Shown here: positions 11,752 to 56,700 of the stretch, piece by piece
How the letters are laid out: every line of letters starts with the position of its first letter
Numbering within the stretch: position 1 is the stretch's first letter
Origin: Amphibalanus amphitrite
Taxonomy: Eukaryota > Arthropoda > Thecostraca > Balanomorpha > Balanidae
Assembly (NCBI RefSeq): GCF_019059575.1
Contig: NW_024881599.1
Location: 620,001 to 684,000 of the forward strand
DNA length: 64,000 nt
Direction of reading: 5' to 3'
Made by a program: the position numbers and the translations under genes
Notes under the pieces: model-generated
Told to the model about the DNA's origin: nothing
Seen by the model: the letters and a program-made list of their open reading frames with translations, nothing else
The model's database searches: none

Positions 11752-14700
11752 GTACGTCATTCGATTCAGCATGTTCACCTTCAGCGTGACATCGCTTTCA
11801 TCTCGTCATGCAGTTCCCCATGTACAGAGCTTCAGTGAGAACCCTGTCTTTGAGGAAGAGTAAACGCTTTACATGTTGGTATGCAAAGAAAATTTCACTT
11901 ACGCCCCATGCGCATTGTACATCGAACATCACCCCTGTCTTCATTTACATGTATCGACAACTCCGTCATCTATGCATAGATATACAATCTATCCCATCTT
12001 AATCCAAAAGCAACGTCGTCCACATTCTTGTGCTGGTTAACTCCTGCGCGACATTCAGTCTGTCCTTACACAACACACACACAGTTCCCATGATCAAGCC
12101 GAAGTGCATGCCTGCCATTTTCAGAACTCCTCTGTGTGACCACTGCCCAGGCTTACTTCCATCAGCTCGTGAACGATTGCAAACCCACGCGAATTGCAGA
12201 ATTAACCAGTGCATTCCATGCGAGGACGACCACATTTACAGCCGGCCTTAGGCCCGACAGGCTTGCTTGCAGTTATGCCTTTAGCTCATGCCAAACCTTT
12301 CGCTGGTCACTGACTTCCTTATCTTCCCTAAATCAATATAAAATACTCACGCCATGCGAGACTGGACGTGAGGTGTTATTCAGCCCTCAGCAAAATGTAG
12401 CCGTTATCTTGGTACTCGCAATGTATGCATGTTCACCTGAGTAAGTACAACAGGGATAATTGGATAATTGCTCCGATAATTGAAGGACATGCGCTGGCCA
12501 AACTAACTGCGGAGAACACCACTTCGAGTCTGCCGGAACTCATGCATATGCATTATGGGCCCAGGGGGTGACTTCAGATGACACAGCGGTGCTGCAAAAT
12601 TAGTTCCCTTGAAACCTCTTGAAAGTTGCGTGCAACGTGAAATACACAGCTATTGTTGAAGGGTGTCTGGGGAGTATTACATTTTTATTGTTATTCGGGC
12701 CATTTCGGGCCATTGTTAAAACGCACAGTTATTGCTGAAGTGGGTCTACGGAGCGTAATTAAGTGTTTTTATGTGCGTATTATTCCGGGGAAGTATCGCT
12801 TGGTATGTGCCACTGCACCATTAGAAGACATTGGCGTTTGACGATAGAAAACAGGCAGGAATAATGTCTGATGTAATTTGAAGGTGTCGAAAATGACTCG
12901 AGTGCAGCTCCGTCATGAACCTAGCGAGACTAATTAAAAAGTGGAAGATAATTGGTAACGTCAAATAATAAGGTAGGACAGCCATAGACACATATCCACT
13001 ATTGAGCATTGTACTTAACCCTCGCGGGCCCGGGGGGGGGGGGCGTTTTTCGCCCCCCCTGGCGAATATTTGCGATAGCTCCCGAACGCTTAGGGATAGG
13101 AAGGCGAAACTTTCAGTACCTTTTTTCCCATCAATTTGACATCTTCTGAAGTAAAAAATTCGGACCTAGCCCCCTTGATGACGTCACAAGGTCCATTTTT
13201 CTAGACCCCCGCACGGCAAACTTTGGCGTCACAGACGCAAACTTCAAATAGCTGCTAAAAATAGAGTTTTAGAGATAAAGACAAATTACGAGCACGGTTG
13301 TGTAGCGTTTGACCTAGAGAAAAATAGAAAAATAGTTTTGGTGACCTGAGGTCAGAGGTCAGGTCAACGACCCCGAAATGTGGTTTTAGTTTTTCGCAAA
13401 TAACTTCGACAAAAATGGTCCTAGAGCTACGGCAGTGGTACCATCGCATTCGCCTTGTCAAGCCGCGTCGAATGATATATATTTTGTTCGGAAAAGGTCA
13501 AATTTTATGTTGACCTCATGTGACCTCGAATGACCTCTGGTTGACCTTGACACATGAAAGGTCGTTTATGATGGATTTGTACCCGCTGATCACGAATCTG
13601 GCATCTATTTTCCTCTAAGCCTTCATTTAGAGCTTCCGGTGTGCAAAATTGTCTTATTTATTATTACTAACTTGAATCAGTGAAATAGCCTCTAGCAGGG
13701 ATACTCTTCTGTGACCTTGACCTTTGAGCAGCCTTGTATCGTAAGATGAACCATAAATAGGGAACTGATAAGCCTCAAAACATTTCAAAACATCTTGGAA
13801 GTTAGCACGCAAGATATGCGAAAAAGTGCCAAGTTTGAGGTCAATTTTGAGCGTGACCTTGACCTTGACCTTTCACTTTGAGCACATTTTCAGAATTCTT
13901 AGATTCTCTTCTTTCGTTTGACAGCCAATTTTGCCGGTTTGATGCAGCCTGCCGTCCTCTAGAAGACTTACTTTGAGATCACTACACATGTGGCGGTTTT
14001 TGCCTTTGACCTTGACCTCTGACCTTGAAAATTGACCTGAGGTCAAAAATTTTAGGTGCATTAGAATCGTCTCGTAAGGACCTTTCGTTTGGTATCGCTT
14101 TTGTTTCCGTAGCTCCCTTATTTACGGAGTTAGACAGGGGGGGCGAAAAACGCCCCCCCCCCCCCCGGGGCTGCGGTGGTTGGGATTACCCCCCGGGCCC
14201 GGCCGGGTTAAACCTGTCAGCACAGAGTGTGTCGCGAATCTCACGCATCTTCCCCTGCATCTGAAACCTTCCACAGTTTAGCCAGATATGCGCATAAAAT
14301 GTGTCAGTAACGTTGTCATAGTTAACCAGAGACGTAATCCGCTCATAGCGTCATCACTATCGTGTGTACAATCAACATCCTCTGCTTTACTTAAATACTA
14401 AAGCACATACTTACATTTACTTTGCATCCTCTTACTTTACTTCGCTTTAACCAAAACTGTCTGCATCCCCCACAGCAAACAGCAACAGTATTCATGGTGG
14501 CATACGTAAATGCAATGTTTCTTGCACTGCTCATTGCTCATGTCATCCTCAAGGCCCTGTCCAATTTATTTTGTCGTTGACTGACACTACGTCCAATTTG
14601 TTTAATTATTGAACTGCTCGCTTCGATGGATGATCGATGATTAGGATGTGTATTACCATTCAAGCAATGCTGCGAACATTGATTCTGTCGACCCAAACTT

Positions 14701-53700: not shown

Positions 53701-56700
53701 GCCGTGTGTGTTCGAACTGGTGGCTGCAGGTGAGTTCCGAGTGGAGGGAGTGGAGTTAATTGAGCTGAGTTTGCCGGTGAGTTCACTGCTGCAAATGAGG
53801 TGCGTGCTAGTTAGGTAACATTTCACGAAACGAGGCTTGCTATTTCATCGGATGGGTGGCTTCGAGGAAGTTTTACTCCAAGTTACTAACTGACTGGATG
53901 TGACTCGGGGATTCGTCGATTTCTCTGTATGCTCACGTTTAATTTCATGTGGAGTTTGACTGATGCTACTTGAAATGTTGAAGTGATTTAGTTCTGGCGT
54001 CTGCCAAATGACACACCAGCGATTCAAATCACGTCTTCCATAAATTGCATCTGCCAGTACACTCCACAGAAGCGTGATTGGTCCATTTCATCGTGCTCAT
54101 GTCTGGCCTCCTCAATACACTGATGGGATATGTGCAATATTCATGAAGTTTCCATCTGCATACGGAGCTGAGCGACCACCCCCTGTGGCCGGGTCGGCAG
54201 GTCGGCCGGACCCGCTGCGAAACTGCAGCGTCATCAACCAGACGTCCCACTCACTGGAGGTCGAGTGTCGCGCCGGGTTCGACGGCGGCCTGCCGCAGTA
54301 CTTCGTGGCCGAGCTGTTTGACCAGACGGGCCAGGAGCTGCTGCGGAACTTTACCCGTCCGTTTCCCGACTTTGCCGTGGCGGAGCTGCCGGCCGGCCTC
54401 GAGCTGCGTCTCGAGCTGTACGCGGCCAACAGTCGCGGCCGCAGCCGGGCCGTCACACTGCACGGCTTCACCCTCAAGATGCCCGAGAAGGGCGCGTCAA
54501 TGGGAGATTCAGGTATGTGATGTATTAACCCGGCACCGCCTGGGCTATTTCCGTACCCACGACAGCCTGGGGGGGGGTCGGATCCGACCCCCCCTGTTAT
54601 CTCGAGAACCAATGGTCGTATCGAGCCCCGCGAGGCGGCGTTCGAAAGGTCTCTACGAGACCTTCCCAAAGCACTCTTAAGATTTTAAGATTGAGGTCAA
54701 CTTTCGGGTCAAGGTCAGGTCAAAGGTCAAATTCAGGGGTTTGCATGATTAGGCTTACGGACAGCAGAATCGATAGCTGCTGCTCGAAACTCACCAAAAA
54801 TGACCTCAAAGGCCTAGTGAAGGTACCATGTGCGTATAGGGGTCATACTAAGTACGGGTCAAGGTCAGGTCAGGTCACGAAAGGTCACGGTTTTCACTAT
54901 CTGCTACATAGGCGTGCGATACATGTTTTATGGCTTATTTTTCACGCCGAATCCGATGATAATGGTTATATGTGACCCCAAGTCACTGTGCTGGTGATAA
55001 GTGTGCATTGAAAGCATAGAAAATCGTTTATACCATACATAACTAAAGGAGGGCTGAGAAAAATGTCAATTTTTCAACTTTTTATTTTTGACATAAAAAT
55101 GCACTTTTCTAGACGAGCTTTGTCCCAGGAATCTAGTGGTGCCATTTGTTTTCACATGCGATGTTCAGAAGTGCCTCTAATTCACGAAAATGCTTATGAC
55201 GTCACCATGCCCTATGCATGTTGGAGCTATTTTTTACAATTTGGGGGTCAAAAATCAAGATAGAAAGTTGAAATTTGGGGCATCTAATGTTCTTATAGAG
55301 CTCTACAACATATATTCCGGTTTTTTTTGAAATTCCCAAAATTTTGGATTTTATTAGCTGTTTCCCAAAAAATATAGTTTTTTGAATTTTTAGGGGTGAA
55401 AAATGCATTTTATGGAAAATCCGAGATAGCCATTTTAAAGAACTTGTTGAGCTGCGTCTTTTCATGTCCTTAATTAGCAATTTGCTTTAAACCCTGATTT
55501 TTGGCGATTTTTTAAACATTTACCACTTTTTGACTAAAAACGCCATGTAGTAACATCACTAAAATCGATATATCTCAAAAAATTTTGGAAATTTTTTCTT
55601 AAAAATTGCACAGGAGACGTCAAATTGATGGGGGAGAAGGTATGCCAAGTTTCAAGTAGATAGCGAAAGTGGTTCATGAGTTATTCAAGAAAAACCGAGG
55701 GGGGGGTCGGATCCGACCCCCCCCAGGCGGTCGCGGGTAAGGCGAATTGTTTGTAATCGATGTGGCATTTGGTTTTGGCTCTGGACTCCGGGTAATTTAG
55801 TTAAGTAGTTTTTCTATCGGATATCAGTAACGTGTCAAAGCAAAATCAAAGCTGATATTGCAATATGTATGTATGTCATTTAATAACACGCCTGATATCG
55901 CCATTTTTTAAGAAAAATGGTTAGATATCAATCTTTTCATCAATCTTATCAATTTCATTTTAGTGAAATCAATCAATTTTGGTGAAAATGTGATACATGA
56001 CCGGAGTATTGTACATTACGACGAGTTGCGATTACGGCTACACATACCGAATCTGGGTCAATGCCAATAAGCGCACCAGCGCTCCGGTAACTTCTGTACC
56101 GTAATGACTTGGTAAATGCTGAAAGTGTGCCAAACAATCCAAATAACTGAAGCTTCTTAATTTATGAACGGGTTATGCCGGACATTAGCCACATAATGCC
56201 CATAAAAGCACTAAGTTTCGACAATATGACTTCCGATTCTTTCTTTGTAATGCCTTTAAAGACTCGGAAACAGAATTTATCGCCTTACCTTGTCATCCAT
56301 GCAAATTTAAGGCACCCGAATGACCACACTGATATGCCACTTAGCAGGCGAGAATACGAACAGCACATGCCACACACCTAACTTATACCTATCCATGTGG
56401 CGCATGAGGCTACCGTCATCTTATTTATCGCTGTGTCGTTTTCAGGCGCCACTGCCCAGCCACCGTTCGTGGTGACACCCATCCTGGGGGTGTTGATCGG
56501 ACTGGTGGCGACGCTCATCATCCTAGCCATCGGAGCAGTCGCCTGCATCAGAAACAGAAGGTGGGTTTGACCCTAGCTGAGGGACAAGGGTGGGTGAGGG
56601 TGGGTATAAGTGCATGGTAAGAATCAATACAGCTGCGTCCGCATCTGCTTGCAATCGCTTTAAAGTCCGTTTATGAGGACGGTTGAGTGCCGCTGATGAA

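Follow-up and report, generated by a model that had tools for sequence, protein, structure and literature searches.

Candidate non-autonomous piggyBac transposons with unequal, matched ends in the genome of the barnacle Amphibalanus amphitrite

Six repeat copies (E, A, D, F, D2 and G) lie in a 64,000-nucleotide stretch of the Amphibalanus amphitrite genome (NCBI RefSeq assembly GCF_019059575.1, contig NW_024881599.1, positions 620,001 to 684,000; the window), and there is strong reason to regard them as non-autonomous transposons of the piggyBac superfamily that were moved by cut-and-paste at TTAA and whose two ends are matched as the code of a transposase lineage. The assembly holds 807.55 Mb in 2644 contigs, and the window lies within contig C102. 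A preliminary description of the window had placed six copies of a TTAA-targeting superfamily with family-specific palindromes at 13015, 23002, 24219, 45813, 51602 and 54525. All six were present, and the superfamily is borne out by family-specific half-sites and tags and by TTAA at both ends of four copies (E, A, D and D2); F has TTGA and TTAA, and the right TTAA of G is short of one A. CCC directly follows the target site at 12 of 12 window ends.

Results

Once the twelve window ends were aligned, every copy proved to have one short and one long end. The short end consists of TTAACCC, ten or eleven bases closing in a family tag, a G-run, a palindromic core and a C-run. The long end consists of TTAACCC, the tag, GGG, about 17 bases and the tag again, followed by G-run, core and C-run as at the short end. 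The tag takes up about 7 to 10 nt from CCC to the G-run, is particular to its family and occurs twice in the long end; neither this second family-specific element nor the difference in end length was noticed in the preliminary description. The step from first to second tag is 28 bp in E, unclear in F and 27 bp in the remaining four copies. The G-run lies 13 bp from TTAA at four short ends (D, D2, G and E), the script giving 19 for A, where the run is interrupted, and 40 to 43 bp from it at the long ends of D, D2, A, G and E (38 in F). Inward of the palindromes, different families have further blocks in common. Core sequence and inward orientation are equal at both ends in five of the six copies (E, A, D, D2 and G). 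The claim that each copy starts with TTAACCC needs amending for one copy, F, which starts with TTGACCC; likewise, same-core palindromes stand at both ends of the other five, as had been said to be usual, and the left palindrome of F is degenerate. Stretches of the form G5+ N7-11 C5+ number 13 in the window, against a mean of 0.1 and a maximum of 1 in 100 first-order Markov sequences. Two other G-run stretches in the window (near 18664 and 19179) have no TTAACCC close by. A weak match to the short-end profile at 43593-43661 (nhmmer E 0.01), with no TTAACCC tip, is perhaps a seventh, decayed element.

Element E (13015..14211, + strand, 1197 bp, TTAA at both ends) is non-coding and of piggyBac type. 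Its short end (13015..13059, +) reads TTAACCC, tag TCGCGGGCCC and G12-CGTTTTTCG-C7, and its long end (14137..14211, -) reads TTAACCC, tag GGCCGGGCCC, spacer, second tag and G14-CGTTTTTCG-C7 at a tag offset of 28. Over its full length E is 92-93% identical to the loci L033 and L038. Element D2 (51602..52516, +, 915 bp) belongs to the family of D (92% identical), with a short end at 51602..51648 (+; tag GCGAGTTGCT; G16-CGTTAAACG-C5) and a long end at 52444..52516 (-; tag GGCAGTTGCT plus second copy; G12-CGTTAAACG-C5). Element D itself (24219..25140, -, 922 bp) has its long end at 24219..24285 (+; tag GGCAGTTGCT, second copy GTTTGCT at offset 27; G9-CGTTAAACG-C5) and its short end at 25102..25140 (-; tag GCGAGTTGCT; G8-CGTTAAACG-C5). 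Element G (54525..55741, -, about 1217 bp) has a long end at 54525..54594 (+; tag GGCACCGCCT, second copy ACAGCCT at offset 27; G9-TCGGATCCGA-C7) and a short end at 55699..55741 (-; tag GCGACCGCCT; G8-TCGGATCCGA-C8). Element F (45813..46997, +, 1185 bp) is degraded. Its short end (45813..45852, +) carries the degenerate palindrome GGATGGG-CAATATAG-CCCCC, and only the right palindrome, in the long end (46931..46997, -; tag GCGCCCCGTT; G7-AGCATTTTG-C9), is intact, with core AGCATTTTG; the best tag offset there is not 27. F is 81% identical to L050 except in the outer ~40 bp of the short end, and the tags and cores of the two are unlike.

Element A (23002..28402, -) measures 5401 bp from TTAA to TTAA, with its long end at 23002..23073 (+; tag CCTGGCA twice at offset 27; G7-TCGATGCGA-C11) and its short end at 28345..28402 (-; tag TCGCCCTGGCA; interrupted G-run, TCGATGCGA, C-run). 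It was considered as an autonomous element and rejected, since its 5.4 kb are made up of nested insertions (23557-27434 and those within), D among them. No stop-to-stop frame of at least 150 aa lies wholly within any of the six copies. The insertion at 23557-27434 is a separate element with 29-nt inverted ends (GGGGAGAGCGGGGCCAG). Inside it is a palindromic element at 24106-25286 with 115-nt arms that are 98% complementary, and D sits in a TTAA of the latter, so the nest is four deep. In the right part of A, at about 27466-27941, a short element with ends AAGGGACCCTCCCACC stands beside TTAA-like sites; it has purine termini, as Kolobok elements do, where the six copies have CCC.

The coupling of left and right ends was tabulated, as had been proposed in the preliminary description. 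Regular expressions divided the 110 distinct TTAACCC sites of the window and L001-L058 into short (42), long (30) and unclassified (38) ends, and sites of opposite type 500-2000 bp apart were paired blind to tag and core. The resulting 21 pairs (E and D from the window, with A, D2, F and G left out) represent 15 distinct tag/core combinations and about 12 families, three families being counted twice. Across these 15 pairs the tags agree at 85/105 positions against 44.3 in shuffled pairings, the inner tags at 77/105 against 39.2 and the core half-sites at 77/90 against 34.1, values that were reached in 0 of 20,000 shuffles in each case. Tags and half-sites are therefore matched far above shuffled pairings. 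The claim that one copy has the same core at both ends is not strictly true, since whole cores are identical in 6 of 15 pairs only (0.5 shuffled), and several families have two different centres, such as TCGGATGGA/TCGGTTGGA and CCTCAGGAG/CCGATTCGG. A second set, which overlaps the first, comprised 20 regions that surround listed short ends. An inward-facing TTAACCC was present at a distance of 700-1500 bp in 17 of them, and these 17 loci agree at 105/119 outer-tag positions (60.3 shuffled) and 102/119 inner-tag positions (62.2 shuffled), each reached in 0 of 5,000 shuffles. L047 was counted at 2/7 because the script chose a wrong site, its true end being matched; L039, whose end is TTAACCT, was missed by the script and matches by eye; and L054 is a copy broken by another repeat. 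L049, also a broken copy, had the look of a chimera but seems to be a truncated pile-up.

The assembly was scanned with patterns defined by the gap between TTAACCC and the G-run (9-11 for short ends, 24-26 intermediate, 36-38 for long ends), and forward-strand counts were used because reverse-strand rows repeat one place per C-run length. The short-end pattern gave 19,053 forward matches (reversed-pattern control, 4) and the long-end pattern 17,816 (control, 1). The intermediate gap gave 267 (control, 5), many of those listed being, by eye, short ends with lengthened or interrupted G-runs. Two discrete spacings are thus found genome-wide, and the short-end and long-end counts are nearly equal, as predicted by one of each per element. 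There are tens of thousands of such ends in the genome, and both strands together would hold about twice the forward counts. A first pattern with the G-run directly after TTAACCC was uninformative (29 forward and 33 reverse matches; controls, 19 and 22), and three pattern scans of viral contigs gave no matches. The ends listed individually all lie within the first 3 Mb of contig C1. Among the 98 distinct long ends listed (of 17,816 forward), 64 have their best tag offset at 27, 17 at 26 and 8 at 28, the remaining 9 having another offset or a tie; their outer tags comprise 35 different 10-base strings. With point variants counted separately, 28 tag and 32 core strings occur at the 88 distinct short ends listed. 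The tag families of E, A and D recur at listed short ends and those of E, A, D, G and F at listed long ends, and about two dozen tag families were told apart in the genome by eye. The 26 distinct cores of at least 9 nt are complementary at 82/116 positions, a quarter being expected; these cores are partly related, and no nominal P value for their palindromy was used.

Full-length relatives with a piggyBac or Kolobok transposase had been named earlier as the thing to look for, and two piggyBac types with G-run ends were found. The PF13843 profile gave 116 scored places in the genome (of 232 candidates), all over the cut-off, of which 25 were inspected: 4 fetched with both flanks, 20 with ~1 kb downstream, and C42. 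Eight of the 11 end-less places among the 20 were extended by a further 1.4 kb. Ordinary piggyBac ends were seen at 11 of the 25 places, G-run ends at 4, and no own end was found at 10, of which three (C1726, C702 and C387) are adjoined by other G-run elements. Three of the four G-run places (C527, C1173 and C42, the last with its short end only) belong to one family and C431 to another. The element at C527:290214-294184 is 3971 bp long (3977 bp in the C1173 copy) and contains a 646-aa open frame; its short end is TTAACCCTAGAACGCCTA-G10-TTGTATCAA-C10, with tag TAGAACGCCTA and core TTGTATCAA, and its long end starts TTAACCCTCGCACGACCA, with tag TCGCACGACCA and core TTGTTACGA. The element at C431:240287-245018 is 4732 bp long, with a 645-aa open frame, tag CGCCCTGGT and cores CCATTTTGG/CCAAAATGA; its short end begins TTAACCT, that is, with a CCT terminus. 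PF13843 scores are 2.2e-69 for the C527 protein and 205.3 bits for that of C431. The nearest solved structure to the C527 protein is the Trichoplusia ni (T. ni) piggyBac transposase (PDB 6x67; E = 2e-78, residues 52-593), piggyBat (9c0f) following at 3.2e-30. In the alignment to 6x67 the aspartates in TVDE, TADRF and GGVDTVDQ and the cysteine/histidine C-terminus (CRD) line up, and C431 aligns with C527 at the catalytic aspartates and CRD. Three copies of one non-autonomous family (L048, L055 and L058) match C431 at 67-78% in stretches that fall inside its first 374 bp and its last ~605 bp, and share with its middle nothing but one 27-base repeat, which marks them as internal-deletion derivatives. 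As a side observation, a single TTAA at L083:674-761 is common to two head-to-head short ends of the TAGAACGCCTA family, which looks like the insertion of one copy into the target site of an earlier one.

The ordinary piggyBac families (L059-L063, L065, L066, L075, L078, L079 and L082; 11 places) were rejected as partners because the ends seen (CCCATTAGTGCC, CCCATTAACGCC, CCCAGGAACGCC, CCCAGATCTGCC, CCCTTTACCGGG and similar) have no G-runs. One of them, L059 (C45:516400-521500; ends CCCATTAGTGCC), is represented by 11 rows with a 604-aa open frame and near-equal scores, which suggests recent activity.

One amplified family, that of L036, is a mosaic, with a body common with another tag family placed between two ends of its own family. 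L036 carries TATTCCTGGC tags at both ends, and L051 belongs to the GCGCACCGAC family. From column 300 to the long-end G-run the two were compared in fourteen 50-column windows and are 92-100% identical in 12 and 82-88% in 2; outside this shared body they agree at 48-60% before it and 53% after it. The last ~43 bases of L036 are 96% identical to L009, of the TATTCCTGGC family, and a stretch near columns 200-300 is 97-98% identical. The first 200 columns are less alike (54-80%), so the donor of the short side was a relative of L009 and not L009 itself. The crossover at the long end lies at the G/C run. A 121-base query over the inner junction matched at full length and 98-100% identity in 40/40 scored places (1,887 first-look candidates), which indicates that the new combination of body and matched ends has spread. 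TATTCCTGGC ends were found at the expected distance for 3 of the 40 (C1:477319, C1:2736169 and C1:1544959), the other 37 being scored on the junction only.

Discussion

Membership of the piggyBac superfamily is settled. The termini CC(C/T), a hallmark of piggyBac (PMC2872659, PMC10813416), are represented by CCC in the window and by CCT at the C431 short end. The preliminary description knew of no described family with such a layout; the layout is, however, that of the asymmetric left and right ends of T. ni piggyBac, and the full-length relatives carry piggyBac transposase genes. The published account of T. ni piggyBac gives ends of 35 and 63 bp that differ by a 17-bp insertion and a duplicated repeat, with one 19-bp palindrome common to both ends and bound by the transposase C-terminal domain (CRD), and its authors (Chen et al. 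2020) termed the inequality "puzzling" and "enigmatic" (PMC7351741). As described there, RE63 equals LE35 plus 28 bp, and the barnacle step is 27-28 bp. TTAA, CCC termini, unequal ends (F unclear), a palindrome in both ends and a homologous DDD and CRD transposase are alike in the two systems. The T. ni palindrome differs in not being of G-run/C-run form, one code is described there against about two dozen here, and the barnacle copies were seen mostly without a transposase gene.

The six copies would be of a class produced when full-length elements in their own genome lose internal sequence. By analogy with the T. ni complexes, the transposase core and DDBD would read the tag near the tip, once at the short end and twice at the long end, and a CRD dimer would read the G-run/C-run palindrome, so that the barnacle palindromes are putative CRD sites. 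The unequal ends would then be synapsed, excised via TTAA hairpins and rejoined at another TTAA. Each tag/palindrome pair may represent the code of one transposase lineage; mobility limited to matched ends would keep the matching in place, and new families may appear through drift of a code or through a new combination of body and matched end pair. The preliminary description had taken the core for a tag that must match, and the end matching and the mosaic family fit such a rule without proving it, the mosaic being one case.

Several observations weigh against this reading. No partner transposase for the E, A, D, F and G tags was found among the 25 of 116 places inspected, and what the window copies share with C527 and C431 is confined to short or weak matches. 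The short and long tags of C527 are similar and not identical, and F is without a clear 27-bp tag duplication. The distance from TTAA to the core follows the length of the G-run (21-29 bp at window short ends), and such a variable distance is not predicted by a rigid protein-DNA complex. The C527 and C431 transposases are identical at 141/349 positions in the catalytic region and 23/52 in the CRD; the CRD is thus not visibly faster-evolving in this one comparison, which counts against a simple CRD-driven change of code.

The strongest competing explanation, though an unlikely one, is that the ends match by common descent of two inverted repeats, or by copying between ends, and are under no functional constraint. 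Terminal inverted repeats match themselves anyway, and some families have different centres at their two ends. In the mosaic, however, both ends are of one tag family and the body is 92-100% identical to another in most windows, with the junction at 40/40 places, and a double exchange of this kind would be expected only where mismatched products fail to spread (again one case). It is less probable still that the G-run/C-run palindromes work as DNA structures, cruciform hairpins or G-quadruplexes, by stalling replication or recruiting repair, instead of being bound by protein. The variable G-runs of 5-16, the palindromy of diverse cores (82/116 complementary positions) and the one mosaic crossover at a G/C run would suit such structures; yet the palindrome is placed as the CRD-bound 19-bp palindrome described for piggyBac (PMC7351741), and its half-sites are family-specific and matched between ends, which pure structure would not need. 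Kolobok elements, which share the TTAA target duplication, can be rejected with near certainty, as their termini are reported as 5'-RR..YY-3' and their transposase is another (PMC9587614, PMC6004289), whereas all window ends begin with CCC and the two full-length types with G-run ends hold PF13843 piggyBac genes, no Kolobok profile having been searched.

Non-autonomous piggyBac transposons with matched ends remain the favored explanation, and a more speculative extension of it, possible rather than probable, is that the genome holds about two dozen mutually exclusive codes which diversify as ends and transposases escape titration by non-autonomous copies, masters being changed by the swapping of matched end cassettes with one crossover in the G/C run. 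If so, the G/C runs would serve both as half-site borders and as recombination joints. The inequality of the T. ni ends, with nearly its step (27-28 bp here), is kept in about two dozen natural families, and it therefore looks like a conserved working part and not a peculiarity of a single moth transposon. A natural table for the piggyBac recognition code could be drawn up from the matched tag/palindrome pairs and the open transposase genes (so far tied to two of them), and orthogonal transposon/transposase pairs for laboratory use could follow from it.

Parts of this picture have precedents. CMITEs of Acropora are of piggyBac type at TTAA, have bodies more conserved between families than their terminal repeats, and include one element that holds the internal region of another family, a precedent for the mosaic; unlike the barnacle elements they are about 100 bp long and made up three families when first discovered, and the cited sections mention neither subterminal palindromes nor unequal ends (PMC2872659). 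Pokey and mPok of Daphnia are lineages with miniature derivatives in one genome, each pair with its own terminal repeat, and selection for transposases recognizing only their own ends is discussed by the authors; two lineages are involved, and the string "palindrom" is absent from the text as retrieved (PMC3849761). In piggyBat of Myotis, according to the account cited, a short repeat is followed after 3 bp by an imperfect palindrome bound by CRDs, but one end has motif and palindrome three times while the other has no palindrome, so the ends are unmatched (PMC11707139). Unequal ends of the T. ni type, which piggyBat is without, are therefore not defining for every piggyBac member. Among the matches listed from the open-access literature, no title or abstract opening dealt with G-run/C-run piggyBac ends. 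Judged against that literature rather than repeat catalogues, the scale, the G/C-run palindromes and the many matched codes in one genome are new.

Other features of the window

The window is animal-like DNA. Comparison of its open reading frames with Pfam and the PDB gave only Ig-domain matches below the Pfam cut-offs, a below-cut-off match to DUF1491 (0.25) and weak Ig-type PDB matches. An open exon-like frame at 54044-54525, with no Pfam match, closes in CAG/GTATGTG, and element G starts ~12 bases into the presumed intron that follows. Arrays of CGACTCC-like hexamers at 43922-44225 and 45061-45352 form two inverted copies that are 92% identical.

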